A DNA stretch of 64,000 bases from an uncultured Pelagibacteraceae bacterium (GTDB lineage: Bacteria; Pseudomonadota; Alphaproteobacteria; Pelagibacterales; Pelagibacteraceae). The translations under genes were made by a program, and so were the position numbers. Where the stretch lies: NCBI GenBank assembly GCA_902622805.1, contig CACNRG010000004.1, positions 18,720 to 82,719 of the forward strand, read 5' to 3'. The notes under the pieces are model-generated. The model did no database searches and had not been told where the DNA came from. It saw only the letters and a list, made by a program, of their open reading frames with translations. Below, piece after piece: positions 7,201 to 14,677 of this stretch (position 1 is its first letter; each line of letters begins with the position of its first letter).

Positions 7201-7315
7201 TTAATTTTTGAAAAAAGATCATTAAATTAGTTATATTCATTTAAAAATATCTTTAATAAGGCAATTAAATAATATAAATAAAAAAATTAAATTTCAATTT
7301 TAGACTTTAATTTTA

Positions 7316-8215
7316 ATGAATAATTACAAAAATGAAAAAGCCAGATCTGTTTCTTTGGAAAAAGTAAAAGATTATTGGAAAGGTAAAAATATACCTCAAA
7401 TTTGGTATACAAATATGGAGCCTGGCTCAGTAGCATATTATAATAATACCTCAAAACAAAGATACGAATTATATTTTCCTTATCTAAAAGAGTCAGCTGA
7501 ATTTCAATACCATCGTAATGAAAAAGTTCTTGAAGTAGGAGTTGGAATGGGCACAGATCTTATTGAATACTCAAAGTTTGGAGCTAAAGTTTATGGAATA
7601 GATTTAGGAGCTGATCAGATAGAATTGTCAAAAAAAATGTTTGATACACTTCAATTACCTTACGAGGAGCTTAAAGTTGCCTCAGTAGAAAAATTACCTT
7701 ATCAAGATAATTTTTTTGATCTAGTTTACTCTTTTGGAGTTATTCATCATACTCCAAACATTAATGCTGCTGTTGATGAAATATATAGAGTATTAAAGCC
7801 AGGAGGTAGAGCTATAATAATGATTTATTCTCGTGGTTGGAAACATTATTTAAAAAGATGTTTTATACACGGTTTCTTAAAATTAAAAATTTTTAAATAT
7901 AAGTTTGATTGGCAAAAAGTATATAATGAAGTATCTGAAGTAAATGGTTTTTCACCTTTGACACAAATTTTGTCAAGAAGACAGGTAACTAAATTATTTA
8001 GCAATTTTTATATTGAGGAAATTAATAAGAAGCGTTTAGGAGAATTTTTTGAATATAAGCCTTATAATACAATTAAGTTACCAAATTTTTTTCTAAATAT
8101 ATTTACTCTTTTTGGTCTTGAAAGATTATTGGGTGAAAATTTTATCATTAAAGTTCAAAAATCTCCAAAAAAAGAAAAAGGTAAAATAAGTGAAGTTATT
8201 TGGAAAAATTATTAA
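7316..8215 (+). CDS. Class I SAM-dependent methyltransferase
   Basis: VLEVGVGMGTDLIEYSKFGAKVYGIDLG and YRVLKPGGRAIIMIYS motifs. Confidence 0.88.
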   Translation: MNNYKNEKARSVSLEKVKDYWKGKNIPQIWYTNMEPGSVAYYNNTSKQRYELYFPYLKESAEFQYHRNEKVLEVGVGMGTDLIEYSKFGAKVYGIDLGADQIELSKKMFDTLQLPYEELKVASVEKLPYQDNFFDLVYSFGVIHHTPNINAAVDEIYRVLKPGGRAIIMIYSRGWKHYLKRCFIHGFLKLKIFKYKFDWQKVYNEVSEVNGFSPLTQILSRRQVTKLFSNFYIEEINKKRLGEFFEYKPYNTIKLPNFFLNIFTLFGLERLLGENFIIKVQKSPKKEKGKISEVIWKNY

Positions 8216-8278
8216 TGTTTAATCTTCTTTTAGACACAATATATCACTTAATCTAAATTTTTTTTTGAGAATTATTAA

Positions 8279-8920
8279 ATGAGTTCAAAAATTAATAAAA
8301 GTGAGTCAGATCAGAAGACAAGAATACGAACTAGATCTGAGCTAGATATTAGAAGAAAAGAATTTATAGAAATCTGTGTTTTATTAGATTCTCTAAATAT
8401 AAGATACTTTTTGCTTGGTGGTATATTATTAGGTGCAATCAGAAATAATGATTTTATATCCTGGGATTGGGATGTTGAAATTTGTGTATTTTCAAAAGAT
8501 GTTTTTAATAATAAAATATTATTAACAGAAATTAATGCATCTCATTTCAAAATAATTAAACAAGATGATAAATTACTTTCTTTTAAGTTAGATCTTTTGG
8601 GAAAACTACCAAAAGAAGTTTCTTGCTACTCAATTATGGGATGGAATCATGATAAAAAAAAAGAAATATTTTGGAGAAAAAATTTCAAAATACCTGAACA
8701 TTTTTTACTTAATATGAAAAAAATTCAATTATTTGATAAATTTCATTATGCCCCATATCCACCAGAAGATTATTTAACTCATCAATACGGTGATTGGAAA
8801 ACACCTATGCAAACAAGTGATAAGGATATCTATCTTTCAAAGGAATATTATCAATATAGCAAGCCTAAAGAATATTTAAAAAATATATTTAAATATTTAA
8901 AAAATTTTTTTAATAAATGA
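8279..8920 (+). CDS. LicD/fukutin-like nucleotidyltransferase-fold protein
   Basis: YFLLGGILLGAIRNNDFISWDWDVEICV resembles the LicD LxGxLLGxxRxxxFIxWDxDxD signature. Confidence 0.7.
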   Translation: MSSKINKSESDQKTRIRTRSELDIRRKEFIEICVLLDSLNIRYFLLGGILLGAIRNNDFISWDWDVEICVFSKDVFNNKILLTEINASHFKIIKQDDKLLSFKLDLLGKLPKEVSCYSIMGWNHDKKKEIFWRKNFKIPEHFLLNMKKIQLFDKFHYAPYPPEDYLTHQYGDWKTPMQTSDKDIYLSKEYYQYSKPKEYLKNIFKYLKNFFNK

Positions 8921-8952
8921 TGTTAAAATAATAGGGTAAATTTATTGATGAC

Positions 8953-9876
8953 CTATATATTAGTTTTTATTTCTTCATAATAAGGAAATAGATCATTAAT
9001 AATTTTCTCAAATTCATCTTTTTCTTTTTGTTTCCAGTCTTTATAAAAATATTTTATTTCACTTCCTTTATTTGGTGCTTTATTTATTACATTTAAAAAT
9101 TCTGTTTTTTTCATCTTATTTCTCAAATCAAATTTTTTTGAGAGTTTTTCATAAATCTCATAATTTTGATCGACATCTTCCAATTTAATATAATATTTTT
9201 GGGTATTATTTATATTTTTAAAATCAGAATATATTAATCTATTGATGGTACACCAATACCATGTAATTTTTCCTATTCTTGACAATGTTTTCCATTCATC
9301 TAAATATCCATCATTGGGAATTATTCTTGAAAATGATCTATAAAGATTATTTGTAATATCTATTATTGGACTATTAAAATCTTTGTTTTTATCACTATGC
9401 ATATACCATCCTTTTTTGTGTAAAGACTCAATAGTTTTTATTGGGTTTCTTATATTAAAAAAAATACACTCTGGTTTTAACTCATTAGTGACCTCTCTTA
9501 CTCCAACCGACCAATATGGAGATGAAATATAACTATTTTGAAATAAAGCCATATCCCTTTTGTAGGATAATTTGATCAAATTAAAAAAACCATATTTAGA
9601 AATTGGAAGTTTATAATATGTTATGTATCTATAAAACGCCTCATAATCAGCAAATCTTTCTGCTGATCCTATCCAATTTTTGTGACTATTAAATAATTTA
9701 GAAAACCAATTTTGTCCACTTCTTCCAGATCCAAAGCTTAAAAAAAGTTTATTATTTTTTGTTCTATTAAAGTCTTCATATTTAATCAATTCGTCATAAG
9801 TGGGTCTTTTATATTTTTTTGCTTCTACCGAATGATTGAATATTTTAGATTTAAATCTATAAATTAAATTTTTCAT
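8953..9876 (-). CDS. Sulfotransferase-like protein
   Basis: FLSFGSGRSGQNWFSKLF (PAPS 5'-phosphosulfate-loop-like) and FFNIRNPIKTIESL (3'-phosphate-binding-like) motifs. Confidence 0.6.
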   Translation of the reverse strand: MKNLIYRFKSKIFNHSVEAKKYKRPTYDELIKYEDFNRTKNNKLFLSFGSGRSGQNWFSKLFNSHKNWIGSAERFADYEAFYRYITYYKLPISKYGFFNLIKLSYKRDMALFQNSYISSPYWSVGVREVTNELKPECIFFNIRNPIKTIESLHKKGWYMHSDKNKDFNSPIIDITNNLYRSFSRIIPNDGYLDEWKTLSRIGKITWYWCTINRLIYSDFKNINNTQKYYIKLEDVDQNYEIYEKLSKKFDLRNKMKKTEFLNVINKAPNKGSEIKYFYKDWKQKEKDEFEKIINDLFPYYEEIKTNI

Positions 9877-9999
9877 AAAATGTTTATCTTTAAATTTCGA
9901 GAAATTAATAAGTTTGAATATATTACATTAAGATTTAATATCTATATAATATTGATATAATATAAATTTATTAACTTAACATAAATATATTTAAATAAT

Positions 10000-10485
10000 A
10001 TGGTAATTTGGATTATTGGTTTATCAGGAAGTGGCAAAACATATTTAGCAAAAAAAATTTTTAAAGAACTTGCAAGAAAAAACAAAAAATGTTTTTTAGT
10101 TGATGGTGACGTAGTAAGAAAATATATTTCATATGATTTAGGTTATTCAATTAAAGACAGAAAAATGAATTCTAAAATCATTACTGATTTATGTAAATTT
10201 TTAGAAATAAATGGATATATCGTAATTTGCTCAATTTTATCTATTTTTCCTATGCATCAAAAAAATAACAGAAAAAAATTTAGTAAATATATTCAAATTT
10301 ATTTAAAATCTGATCTTACTAAATTGATTAAGATAAATTCTAAAAAAGTTTATTCAAAAAAAAATGTTGTTGGGAAAGATATAAAGTTTCCCATTCCTTA
10401 TAAATCCCATTTCATTTTAGATAGATCAAATCTTAAAAAATATAAATATTACTACAGTAAAATTTTAGACAAAATTAGCAAATAA
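10000..10485 (+). CDS. Adenylyl-sulfate kinase (CysC)-like P-loop kinase
   Basis: IIGLSGSGKT Walker A, LVDGDVVRKYISYDLGYSIKDR matches CysC DGDxxRxxxxxDLGFSxxDR; the region after IVICS diverges. Confidence 0.75.
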   Translation: MVIWIIGLSGSGKTYLAKKIFKELARKNKKCFLVDGDVVRKYISYDLGYSIKDRKMNSKIITDLCKFLEINGYIVICSILSIFPMHQKNNRKKFSKYIQIYLKSDLTKLIKINSKKVYSKKNVVGKDIKFPIPYKSHFILDRSNLKKYKYYYSKILDKISK

Positions 10486-10559
10486 AGGTAATTATTTTTT
10501 ACTTGAATAATTAAATTTTCTATGTGTAGTAGATATAAAGATTCATAATTTTTAAAAAC

Positions 10560-11246
10560 ATGGATAATTTAATCACACTTGCACAAGAGGAACAAATAGT
10601 AAGAAATATCACTCTTATTCAATTTACTATTTCATTATTTTTGTCACTTATCCTGAATTTAATTTTAGCAAAATTTTACAAGTATTTTAATGATAGCTAT
10701 TCCAATCCTACATCTGTAATTGAGACAATTGTTTTAGTGGGTATTATAATAACATTGATTATGGTAATTATTGGTTCAAACATAGCTCGAGCCTTTGCTC
10801 TAGTGGGAGCAATGTCGATAGTAAGATTTAGGAACCCTTTAAAAAATCCCAAAGATTTAGTTTACATTTTTGCATCTATAGCAATTGGAATGGCTTGTGG
10901 AACCTTTTTTTATGAGTATGCAATTATATTTTTAGTTATATTCATTATAGGAAACTATATTTTGAAGGGTTCAAAATCTACAAAAGAAAATAAAAATTTT
11001 AGAATTATTAAAATTAAGATAAAGTTAGAAGATAATAACTTTTTAAAAAGTTTATTTACTAAACACAAACTAAATGAAAAATTAATAAATTCCTCAAGCT
11101 TTTCCTACAATGAAGAACAATATTTAGATCAAGTATTTGAAATAAATTTTAAAAATGAAAAAGATTATGATGAATTTTTAAATATTATTAATAGTAAAAA
11201 AATTGAATATAACACTTTATTAGGTGAAGCTAATTCTGGTATTTAA
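10560..11246 (+). CDS. DUF4956 family membrane protein
   Basis: Multiple TM helices, ARAFALVGAMSIVRFRNPLKNPKDLVYIFASIAIGMACG signature, soluble C-terminal tail. Confidence 0.75.
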   Translation: MDNLITLAQEEQIVRNITLIQFTISLFLSLILNLILAKFYKYFNDSYSNPTSVIETIVLVGIIITLIMVIIGSNIARAFALVGAMSIVRFRNPLKNPKDLVYIFASIAIGMACGTFFYEYAIIFLVIFIIGNYILKGSKSTKENKNFRIIKIKIKLEDNNFLKSLFTKHKLNEKLINSSSFSYNEEQYLDQVFEINFKNEKDYDEFLNIINSKKIEYNTLLGEANSGI

Positions 11247-13936
11247 TGCTATTAAGAATTTTGGTATCAACAATAGTTTTAATTTTTGTTTTATTATCAT
11301 TTTTAGTTCATGATAATTATAAAAACTTATATAAATATCGTGATTTTTCTTATCCCTCCAGTTTAAAAAGAGATTTAATTTTTGAGGCTCTTTTAGATAC
11401 CAGATCTGACATCTATCGTACCTTTGATAAATTTTACTATAATGAGAATGATGAAAATAATATTAATAAAGTTTTTTTAAATATAAATAAAAAAGGTAAC
11501 TTTGAAAAAGCGAGAGATTATTGGCATGACAAAACTTTATTGGGAGACTTAACTAAAAATAATTATTTTCCTTCTACTATCAATTTTGACTCCACTAACA
11601 ATATATTTCAAAAATCTCAATTTAGATTTAGAGGTAAAAGTGATTGGCATTTAAGAATAGAAAAACCATCTTTAAGAGTCAAATTAAGGCATTATGAAAA
11701 TTACAATATGATGAAACACTTAAATTTAACTTTTCCAGAAGGAAGAGGGATTATTGAAAATTATTATGCAGATTTAATTTCAAGAAAAATTGGTTTAATT
11801 GGTCACTATGGTGAATTAGTTGAACTTTATATAAACAATTTGAACTTTGGAGTTTATCATTTGCATTCAAGAGAAGATGAGAACTTGATTAGAATAAATA
11901 AAAGAATGCCTGGACCTATATTATCTGGACAAAATTTAAAAATTGATAAATGGAATATTGATGATTTTAAGATAGTAAATCTAGAGAGTATTTCAAGAAA
12001 CAAAGATATTTTTCATAAAATGATTAATGAAATAAATAAACCAAACAAAGATATCGAGGATTGGAATAGATTGTGGAAACTCATCAACTTTGAACAAACA
12101 GCTAAACATGTAGCTTTAAATGCAATTCTATTGAATTTACATAATGATTATTGGCATAATCATGAATTTTTTTATGATAAAACTCTTGGAAGAATAGAAC
12201 CAATATTAAATGATACATTATCACTTGGAACATATGTTTACCCAAGAGGCTATGATAGATTTTCTTTTAAAACATTTATGAGTGAAGAAAAGGCAGATCA
12301 TAGAATACCTATAAATCAAAAAACAAACCCTTTTTTTAATAAAATTATTTCTGATACAAATTTTTATCATAGAAAGAACCAGATAATTTTATCTTTAATT
12401 AATGATCAATTAAGTGTTAAGAATCAATCAAAACTTATATCAAATATTTATAATCATATTGATAATGCCGTTTATAGAGATAAGCATAAAAGATATTTAG
12501 CTCAGAGATTAAATGGTCCCCAAATAGCAAAATCTTCAAACTATGAATATGAAATTTATAAAAAGAATATTTTTGAATTTATAAAAAAAAGAAATTTATT
12601 TCTTAAAGATAAATTAAGTGAAAATTCACTATTGTTCAGTTTAATTGAATTAAAAGAATTCCAAAATCAAAAGTTTATTAAAATTCAATATAAAGGTGAA
12701 TTACCATTAGAATTAGAAAAAACATTTTCGAATGAAATAAAACTTTATGTGCCTTCAAGTAAAAAATTTATGAAACCTGATTTTGAATATATTACATTTC
12801 ATACCGGTTTAGAAATAATTAGAAATAATGATATGTTTACTAATGCTAAATTAGGAAAAGATATTTTTCATGATCATCACTATGTTCCAGCTTATCAAAC
12901 TTATTTATTAAAAGTAGATGACAATTTTGATAAAAATAAATTTAAAAATCTGCTTCAAAGTAAAAAGAATGTTAATTTTGAAGAAATTTTAATAGATAAA
13001 CAATTATCAATAAATGATATCGAATATAATAAATCTACTATACATGTTTGGAATAAAGAGAAACCTTTGAAACAAGATATTGTTTTTGAGAAAGGTGATC
13101 ACGATATAAAAGAAGATATTTTTGTTAATAAAAATCAAAGATTGATTATTAAAGATGGCTCAAATCTTTTTTTATGGCCTGGTGTATCAATTTTTTCAGA
13201 GGGTAAAGTTAATATAGATGGAAATCAGTTGGGTGTTGTTTTAAAAAATAAATTTTCAAATCAACCATGGGGAAATTTATCTATTATTGGTGAGCACACA
13301 AATGGAAGCTATATAAAGAATACTACTATTAAAGGTGGATCAGCAAAAGATATTGATAATATTCTTTTTTCAGGAATGATTAATTTTTTTTGGAACAAAG
13401 ATATTTTATTAAAAGATTTAATTATTAGTAATAATTCAATAGGAGATGATACAATTCATTTCACAAAAAGCCATGGTAATATAATTAATTTAGAAATTTC
13501 CAACTGTCTCAGCGACTGCATTGATATGGACCATTCAATTTATGAGATTGAAAATCTAATTTGTACTGATAGTTTAAATGATGGTCTTGATTTAATGGAG
13601 TCAATAGTGAGTGCAAATAATCTCAATTTTTCGAAAAATATGGATAAATCAATTTCAGTTGGTGAGGCCTCTAAATTAACCGTTAATAAAATAACAATTA
13701 CGGAGTCAAATATTGGTGTAGCATCAAAAGATGATTCGAATGTTGATCTTACCAATGTAATGATTGAAAATTCAAATATTGGTTTAGATTCTTACAGAAA
13801 AAATACTAGATATAAATCATCTGGCAAAATTAGTTTAAAAGATTATAAATTAATTAATAATAAATTAGATCTTAAATTTATAGATCCATCTAATATTAAT
13901 TTTAATTTTAAAGAGTTAAATTACATTAAAAATTAA
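11246..13936 (+). CDS. CotH-like kinase-fold protein with N-terminal TM anchor and C-terminal right-handed beta-helix
   Basis: N-terminal hydrophobic anchor; QFRFRGKSDWHLRIEKPSLRVKLR ... MMKHLNLTFPEGRGIIENYYADLISRKIGLIGHYGELVELYINNLNFGVYHLHSRED resembles CotH; C-terminal repeating rungs (GDDTIHF/SDCIDMD/NDGLDLM/NIGVASK/NIGLDSY). Confidence 0.7.
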   Translation: MLLRILVSTIVLIFVLLSFLVHDNYKNLYKYRDFSYPSSLKRDLIFEALLDTRSDIYRTFDKFYYNENDENNINKVFLNINKKGNFEKARDYWHDKTLLGDLTKNNYFPSTINFDSTNNIFQKSQFRFRGKSDWHLRIEKPSLRVKLRHYENYNMMKHLNLTFPEGRGIIENYYADLISRKIGLIGHYGELVELYINNLNFGVYHLHSREDENLIRINKRMPGPILSGQNLKIDKWNIDDFKIVNLESISRNKDIFHKMINEINKPNKDIEDWNRLWKLINFEQTAKHVALNAILLNLHNDYWHNHEFFYDKTLGRIEPILNDTLSLGTYVYPRGYDRFSFKTFMSEEKADHRIPINQKTNPFFNKIISDTNFYHRKNQIILSLINDQLSVKNQSKLISNIYNHIDNAVYRDKHKRYLAQRLNGPQIAKSSNYEYEIYKKNIFEFIKKRNLFLKDKLSENSLLFSLIELKEFQNQKFIKIQYKGELPLELEKTFSNEIKLYVPSSKKFMKPDFEYITFHTGLEIIRNNDMFTNAKLGKDIFHDHHYVPAYQTYLLKVDDNFDKNKFKNLLQSKKNVNFEEILIDKQLSINDIEYNKSTIHVWNKEKPLKQDIVFEKGDHDIKEDIFVNKNQRLIIKDGSNLFLWPGVSIFSEGKVNIDGNQLGVVLKNKFSNQPWGNLSIIGEHTNGSYIKNTTIKGGSAKDIDNILFSGMINFFWNKDILLKDLIISNNSIGDDTIHFTKSHGNIINLEISNCLSDCIDMDHSIYEIENLICTDSLNDGLDLMESIVSANNLNFSKNMDKSISVGEASKLTVNKITITESNIGVASKDDSNVDLTNVMIENSNIGLDSYRKNTRYKSSGKISLKDYKLINNKLDLKFIDPSNINFNFKELNYIKN

Positions 13937-14625
13937 TGAACTACTTCGAAAGATTTGAAAAAAAATTCTTAATTACATTAGATCAAAAAGAAAAAATAAA
14001 AAATAAGTTTAGTAATATTTTTATTTCAGAATTTAAAAGAGGCTATAGTTGTTATTCATTATATTTTGATGATCTAAATTTTTCTACTTTAAAACAAAAA
14101 CAAGAAGGCCTAACCGAAAGACATAAGATAAGACTTAGAGGCTATTTTCATGATATGAAAGATAAAATTAAACAATGGCATCTTGAAATAAAGTCAAAAA
14201 AAAATAATATAGTAAAAAAAAAGAAAATTACTTTTGGAAATCACGAGGTTAAGCAAAATTTACTAAAAAAAAATTATTCTTTTTTTACAAAAAATTTTTT
14301 TGAGACATCAAGAACATATTACCAACCTACTTATATAACATTTTATCATAGAGATGCATTGATTAGTAATATTTTACCTCATTGTAGAATTACATTTGAC
14401 ACAAACATAAGATGCTTTAAATACAGTAATGATTTATTTGGAAAAACAAACATTAACCAAAACTATATTTTAAATCCAAATAGAATATTACTTGAACTAA
14501 AATATACAAATTTTTTACCTAAATTTATTTCTGATTATTTTGTTCATTTAAATCTTGAACAAGTTACTTTTTCAAAATATGTCGATGGTTATGAGCAATA
14601 TAGAATAAATCCAATTAATACTTAA
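13936..14625 (+). CDS. VTC-domain (polyphosphate polymerase-like) protein
   Basis: FERFEKKFLI start, YSCYSLYFDD, RHKIRLRGY, HLEIKSKKNN, ILLELKYTN and C-terminal FSKYVDGYE match VTC/CYTH-like triphosphate tunnel layout. Confidence 0.75.
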   Translation: MNYFERFEKKFLITLDQKEKIKNKFSNIFISEFKRGYSCYSLYFDDLNFSTLKQKQEGLTERHKIRLRGYFHDMKDKIKQWHLEIKSKKNNIVKKKKITFGNHEVKQNLLKKNYSFFTKNFFETSRTYYQPTYITFYHRDALISNILPHCRITFDTNIRCFKYSNDLFGKTNINQNYILNPNRILLELKYTNFLPKFISDYFVHLNLEQVTFSKYVDGYEQYRINPINT

Positions 14626-14677
14626 TCCTGAATAAAAAAAGTTTGTAAATTTTAAGTAAATAATATTTAATAGTTTT

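Follow-up and report, generated by a model that had tools for sequence, protein, structure and literature searches.

A conserved DUF4956, CotH-beta-helix and VTC gene trio in a Pelagibacteraceae genome and its possible role in handling phosphate polymers at the cell envelope

Three adjacent genes are described here from a stretch of 64,000 nucleotides of an uncultured Pelagibacteraceae bacterium (assembly GCA_902622805.1, contig CACNRG010000004.1, positions 18,720 to 82,719), the whole of which we call the window. They encode, in this order, a DUF4956 membrane protein, a protein that joins a CotH kinase-like domain to a beta-helix, and a VTC-domain protein. An initial annotation, made from the sequence alone, had reported three open reading frames between 10560 and 14625 with TAATG junctions at 11246 and 13936, and this is exactly what the window sequence holds, each junction being a 1-nucleotide overlap. 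The families that it had named were confirmed by profile searches, in which all three proteins score above the curated Pfam cut-offs (30.6 bits for DUF4956, 23.8 for CotH and 23 for VTC). The genes of the trio, in window coordinates, are as follows.

10560..11246, + strand: DUF4956 gene, 228 amino acids; PF16316, 52.8 bits.
11246..13936, + strand: CotH-beta-helix gene, 896 amino acids; PF08757, 43.7 bits, together with AlphaFold2 (AF2) modelling and Foldseek.
13936..14625, + strand: VTC gene, 229 amino acids; PF09359, 101.8 bits; its profile matches Vtc4 structures.

According to the initial annotation, the overlaps implied one functional unit. The unit stands, but the overlap alone does not establish it. 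Overlaps of 1 nucleotide occur in 8 of the 41 same-strand neighbour pairs of the window, and overlaps of any length in 23 of them; because such junctions are ordinary in this compact genome, they constitute weak evidence. Among relatives, the gaps between the trio genes range from about -65 to +31 nucleotides, with a few longer. The real evidence for the unit is conserved adjacency, and the trio almost certainly forms one functional unit.

The occurrence of the three families was surveyed in 197 genomes of the order Pelagibacterales and in 200 Pseudomonadota genomes. Within the order, VTC was detected in 21 genomes, DUF4956 in 25 and a Pfam-detectable CotH in 11. The trio had been called unexpected in a streamlined pelagic genome; the genome is indeed of that kind, sharing its genus code with Pelagibacteraceae genomes, and the VTC count shows that presence is uncommon but not exceptional. 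DUF4956 was found in all VTC-bearing genomes of the order except one, and in that genome, as in most genomes with DUF4956 only, the match is located either near the end of its contig or on a contig of small size. In the 20 loci fetched from the order (18 genomes), a CotH-type gene adjoins VTC, once with one intervening gene, and it does so also where Pfam misses CotH. The CotH-type gene is inverted in one of these loci (L058), and the sole fetched locus without a DUF4956 match stops at a contig end.

A scan of named genomes contributed 80 further loci; the beta-helix part of the protein (A4) was usable as the query, A2 being too divergent for a scan of genomes. Seven pairs among the resulting 100 trio-related loci are duplicates, which leaves 93 distinct loci. 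All three genes are carried by 82 of them and are strictly contiguous in 76, which bears out the co-occurrence that had been anticipated. Of the other 11 loci, nine are truncated where their contig stops, the Brevirhabdus locus has its VTC in a different frame, and one deltaproteobacterial locus (L151) truly lacks both partners. Moreover, the pairwise distances of the three proteins correlate (Mantel rho 0.82-0.88, a level reached by 0 of 500 permutations); judged from these protein comparisons, the genes of the trio have a common history. In the survey of the phylum, the 7 genomes with VTC are also the 7 with DUF4956 above cut-off, and the two genes are neighbours there or are separated by CotH alone (hypergeometric probability about 4e-13, relatedness ignored); CotH occurs in 19 genomes, 5 of which have VTC. 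We therefore regard VTC-DUF4956 as the core and CotH as the common third member.

Outside pel loci, the trio is present in records of Pelagibacteraceae, SAR86, roseobacters, Marinomonas, Prochlorococcus and Actinomarina. Rows of other lineages are scattered in the tree and require 9 changes, at least 8 of them forced by starred branches, and this scatter points to repeated transfer. Some of these rows are single-cell or metagenome bins, for which mis-binning is possible; named strains among them are Marinomonas sp. MED121 and Brevirhabdus pacifica DSM 27767. The trio is real, conserved and transferable. Carriage by phages or plasmids is unsupported, because no relative was found in the viral contigs searched and plasmids gave no tblastn match to CotH or VTC of Marinomonas. 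A recent foreign origin based on base composition was rejected, the GC content of the trio (0.232, against a window mean of 0.262 with a standard deviation of 0.023 per 4 kb) not being striking. One Pelagibacteraceae genome (G044) holds three diverged copies of the trio (L051, L052 and L053).

The VTC protein of the window consists of the VTC domain alone, with neither a membrane span nor a signal peptide. Searches of PDB with single sequences gave no match and profiles were required; a profile of 21 VTC relatives matches yeast Vtc4 structures (E 4e-16), and it picks up Vtc subunit structures and no tripolyphosphatase structures. Residues K200, R264, R266, K281, E426 and K458 of Vtc4, in the numbering derived from full-length chain 8i6v_E, correspond to K10, R66, R68, K86, E187 and K214, which are invariant in 83 of 83 rows. 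Arg264 and Arg266 of the yeast protein are essential for polyphosphate synthesis (PMC8749416). The intact tunnel agrees with the polymerase-type VTC that was first proposed. In the plant tripolyphosphatase AtTTM3, Glu replaces four basic residues of Vtc4 (PMC4641920). At three of these acidic-patch positions, which were matched by us, the window protein has two basic residues (R6 and K189) and an acidic one (E8). As far as the sequence indicates, the pocket resembles that of a polymerase for the most part, though not throughout, and it is fairly likely that this protein would make polyphosphate. Among the SAR11 genomes with the trio that were tested, the majority, the window's own (82% complete) among them, gave no match to the polyphosphate kinases PPK1 and PPK2. 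A role for VTC as a replacement for these kinases was discarded, since PPK1 in 3 of 16 genomes with the trio and 6 of 16 without it gives no clear pattern.

The DUF4956 protein has five predicted membrane helices (residues 19-142), followed by a C-terminal region (148-223) with a beta-alpha-beta-beta-alpha-beta arrangement, which was modelled as an ACT-like domain (AF2, predicted local distance difference test score (pLDDT) 81). Foldseek matches of this protein are to ACT- and Lrp-type domains, and all are weak. Its invariant residues are G83, A84, S86, R89, R91, F104 and G110. PF16316 is matched by 19 of 19 relatives at E<0.01. The MgtC profile PF02308 gives 24.3 bits with the window protein, under its cut-off of 31.4, and matches 4 of the 19 relatives at the same threshold; one relative matches PRK09977, below cut-off. 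These weak MgtC matches agree with the published description of SIR_1592 of Streptococcus intermedius as MgtC plus ACT. DUF4956 had been described as lacking an assigned function, a statement that gives way to a resemblance to MgtC/SapB with an ACT-like domain. We consider DUF4956 very probably the membrane partner of VTC.

The CotH-beta-helix protein comprises the following parts.

11249..11335, + strand: N-terminal hydrophobic helix, membrane anchor, residues 2-30; AF2 helix.
11624..12598, + strand: CotH kinase-like domain, residues 127-451; H299 and D323 correspond to D228 and D251.
13076..13909, + strand: right-handed beta-helix domain, residues 611-888; AF2, Foldseek and alignment.

The N-terminal stretch has a mean hydropathy of 3.09 over 17 residues; such an anchor or signal-like stretch is found in 75 of 83 homologs, with no second membrane span. 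The predicted orientation is towards the periplasm, in keeping with the envelope-anchored partner of the initial annotation. The AF2 model has a mean pLDDT of 65, low between the domains and mostly >90 over residues 611-868. Its best Foldseek match is CotH of Bacillus cereus (5jd9, E 1.2e-11, template modelling (TM) score 0.70 of the target), and the matches beyond CotH are the beta-helix proteins NosD, AlgE4 epimerase, GH87, PL6 and GH28. Pfam gives no beta-helix call in the window protein and calls Beta_helix in 4 of 21 relatives; together with the model and Foldseek, these relatives uphold the beta-helix named at the outset. No GH28, PL6 or epimerase family of Pfam was found above cut-off and no PDB profile matched the beta-helix. 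A GH28 assignment from motif resemblance was dropped, as it had no profile support.

Fourteen positions of the beta-helix (D735, D757, D760, D762, D779, D782, D800, K801, S804, G806, E807, K828, D829 and K852; Asp accounts for 8 of them, Lys for 3 and Glu for 1) do not vary in any of the 94 aligned rows, about 6 of which are duplicates. They recur roughly every 22 residues and may therefore be stacked along a single face of the helix. Conservation is much lower in the kinase domain. At the position of D228 of Bacillus subtilis CotH, the window protein has H299, and His occupies it in 90 of 94 rows; by contrast, none of the canonical CotH rows compared has lost the Asp, not even the one that adjoins VTC and DUF4956 (L174/L183). 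D323, the equivalent of D251, is retained in 92 of 94 rows. An otherwise conserved Glu of the domain is also replaced, by Ser, in the window, and the paired Lys residues of the CotH kinase are not conserved in the CotH-beta-helix family. The D228Q variant of B. subtilis CotH is inactive (PMC7821199). Because the domain lacks the D228-type Asp, and because its site would be scarce in ATP, it is probably not an ordinary ATP kinase, and the phosphorylation of a surface protein that had been suggested initially is weakened. The beta-helix is the most constrained surface of the protein and probably its acting part. One genome (G233) contains both a canonical CotH-VTC-DUF4956-HlyD set (L183, contig C8, Asp kept) and a beta-helix trio (L160, contig C14, Asp lost). 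In addition, a second, shorter CotH-profile protein of about 535 amino acids lies directly upstream of DUF4956 at L086:3916-5526 and L090:3887-5494.

A family-I inorganic pyrophosphatase is linked to the trio in 8 of the 93 distinct loci. It is fused to the C-terminus of the CotH-beta-helix protein in L086, L090, L107, L109 and L129, encoded separately between CotH and VTC in L050 and L097, and located just upstream of DUF4956 in L047. These enzymes score 100-116 bits with Pfam and preserve the GDGDxxD motif, and the separate ones begin with signal-like stretches. The 7 linked loci that are in the tree require 7 changes, which means either several independent gains of the link or frequent losses. 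Furthermore, a PHO4 phosphate transporter follows two of the three VTC-DUF4956 pairs without CotH, namely L184 (G279) and L186 (G295), and the latter also has a phytase-like gene. The link to phosphate that was drawn initially is reinforced by these neighbours, and the recurrent pyrophosphatase fusion ties the trio to phosphate outside the cytoplasm.

The trio occupies part of a variable genomic slot.

7201..14677, no strand: variable slot with the trio; left flank valS-ilvD-manC, right flank ldh2-xthA-erpA-dgt.

The same flanks enclose 13.8 kb of other DNA in G020 and 11 kb in G003, with no trio match; in G062 the slot measures only 2.6 kb and the trio is located elsewhere. The rest of the slot in the window (7316-10485) is filled by a methyltransferase gene, a LicD-like gene, a gene for a P-loop protein that has no Pfam match and looks like a sulfotransferase, and an APS-kinase-like gene. 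The APS-kinase-like and sulfotransferase-like neighbours were rejected as members of the unit, having no match among the open reading frames of the 100 loci. No gene family is constant beside the trio across relatives, and the commonest consists of sugar-nucleotide-type genes (35 of 100 loci, identity read from sequence). A membrane-anchored TPR-like protein of about 345 amino acids, with no Pfam match, is encoded beside CotH in the loci nearest to that of the window, between DUF4956 and CotH in L042 and L044.

L042:10546-11595, - strand: TPR-like protein gene.
L044:7822-8844, + strand: TPR-like protein gene.
L043:19151-19927, - strand: TPR-like protein gene.

Genes for CotH, a polyphosphate polymerase and DUF4956 have been described as accessories of Gram-positive pel operons, namely those of streptococci, clostridia and bifidobacteria (PMC7112168, PLoS Pathog 2020). 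In S. intermedius they are SIR_1592 (MgtC and ACT), SIR_1593 (polyphosphate polymerase) and SIR_1594 (CotH and FN3) (PMC7112168, PMC12345266), and deletion of the DUF4956 or the CotH gene altered Pel and aggregation (PMC12345266). Synteny of the trio outside pel was not found by the 2025 mBio study (PMC12345266). In our data, PelG is absent from 25 of 26 genomes with the trio or the pair, and in the remaining genome it lies on another contig than the trio.

We tentatively propose, as the best-supported reading and with a confidence slightly short of even, that the trio is a self-standing, horizontally transferable envelope module for phosphate polymers. The cytoplasmic VTC, given its intact tunnel, would make polyphosphate from ATP, and DUF4956, its near-obligate partner by co-occurrence, may anchor the product at the inner membrane, gate it or pass it on. 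According to its predicted topology, the CotH-beta-helix protein is secreted, or anchored, on the outer side of this membrane, where it would receive phosphate or polyphosphate and use it on, or bind it to, an envelope glycan or protein. Where present, the exported pyrophosphatase could remove pyrophosphate formed outside or return inorganic phosphate (Pi) for uptake. That the CotH-beta-helix protein acts on a glycan is about as open to doubt as to belief, with doubt a little ahead; passage of polymer or phosphate across the membrane, for which the direction and the acceptor are conjectural, is possible but more doubtful.

Several points weigh against this proposal. The acidic E8 makes the VTC pocket mixed, no activity of any bacterial VTC is reported in the open-access literature searched, and deletion of the VTC gene of S. 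intermedius gave no clear phenotype (PMC12345266). No channel fold was recognised in DUF4956. The pyrophosphatase is confined to the few loci given above and absent from the window trio, the trio has no constant glycan neighbour, and only about one-tenth of the order's genomes have it.

The beta-helix enzymes retrieved by Foldseek would also suit a module for glycan tailoring, in which the beta-helix cleaves, epimerises or binds an exopolysaccharide, CotH is a scaffold, and phosphate is only regulatory, with VTC and DUF4956 sensing or adjusting the phosphate or nucleotide state and thereby setting output. The manC and LicD-type genes of the window slot and the frequency of sugar-nucleotide-type neighbours favour this explanation, as does the finding that deletions of the DUF4956 and CotH genes of S. 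intermedius shift Pel amounts in opposite directions (PMC12345266). However, the neighbours vary, many loci lie among metabolic genes (for example guaA-trio-sfsA in Marinomonas, read from sequence), no carbohydrate-active family reaches its Pfam cut-off, and the recurrent gain of an exported pyrophosphatase is left unexplained; we therefore consider glycan tailoring somewhat unlikely. A classical kinase module, in which CotH would use ATP to phosphorylate a protein of the surface while VTC acts as a source or buffer of phosphate, would account for the CotH fold and the retained D251 equivalent, but the His at the D228 position, the inactivity of D228Q, the unconserved paired Lys and the predicted location outside the cytoplasm make it improbable. 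If the VTC-type protein were instead a tripolyphosphatase or another triphosphate-tunnel hydrolase, the module would degrade phosphate polymers. The tunnel family does include hydrolases, and E8 occupies a Glu position of AtTTM3; however, R6 and K189 are as in a polymerase, the equivalent of K458 never varies and the VTC profile retrieves no tripolyphosphatase structures, and degradation appears improbable to us as well.

Export of polyphosphate by the trio, if confirmed, would be the bacterial equivalent of the translocation that yeast couples to synthesis, and would provide a means of handling phosphate in oceans where it is scarce. A broader extracytoplasmic phosphate-polymer system of ocean plankton, in which VTC would make polyphosphate, DUF4956 would pass it out, the CotH-beta-helix protein would hold it or use it, rather than ATP, as a phosphate donor outside the cell, and the exported pyrophosphatase would recover Pi, is a speculative extension that we rate as rather unlikely. 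A labile extracellular phosphate buffer has been reported for SAR11 and Prochlorococcus (PMC4525184). Under this extension, the trio could contribute to the buffer in carrier cells; it cannot be the general cause, because so small a fraction of the order has it. Since the trio is separable from Pel, its own chemistry can be tested without the polysaccharide operon.

Several known systems resemble the trio in part. Like the yeast VTC complex, it has the catalytic tunnel residues of Vtc4 and would place synthesis beside a membrane partner, whereas the chain of the window VTC includes neither an SPX domain nor a membrane span, and none of the tests run identified DUF4956 with the membrane domain of Vtc1. 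The CotH domain shares its fold and the D251 equivalent with the CotH kinases of B. subtilis and B. cereus (5jd9), but has His for D228, is fused to a beta-helix and is predicted to be exported. MgtC/SapB proteins have weak Pfam and NCBIfam matches to DUF4956 members and likewise combine a membrane part with an ACT-like end; however, DUF4956 scores under the curated cut-offs for these proteins and is genetically linked to VTC. In Clostridium perfringens, NELoc-2 (VTC, CotH and a chitin-synthase-like gene; PMC2879425) also clusters VTC and CotH genes, although in a different context; the membrane genes next to VTC there, annotated 'tubulin/FtsZ', possibly belong to DUF4956. The closest system is the pel accessory trio, which comprises the same three families, with a DUF4956 protein described in that system as an MgtC-type membrane part with an ACT domain. 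In contrast to it, the window trio occurs without pel genes and is ordered DUF4956-CotH-VTC, its CotH protein bears a beta-helix in place of FN3 and has no Asp at the D228 position, and the marine CotH protein can carry a pyrophosphatase. The three families and their pel-linked trio are thus already known, and the stand-alone marine form is a variant with new features: within the open-access literature searched, these are the CotH-beta-helix fusion, the altered kinase site, the VTC tunnel residues preserved in every row and the recurrent exported pyrophosphatase.

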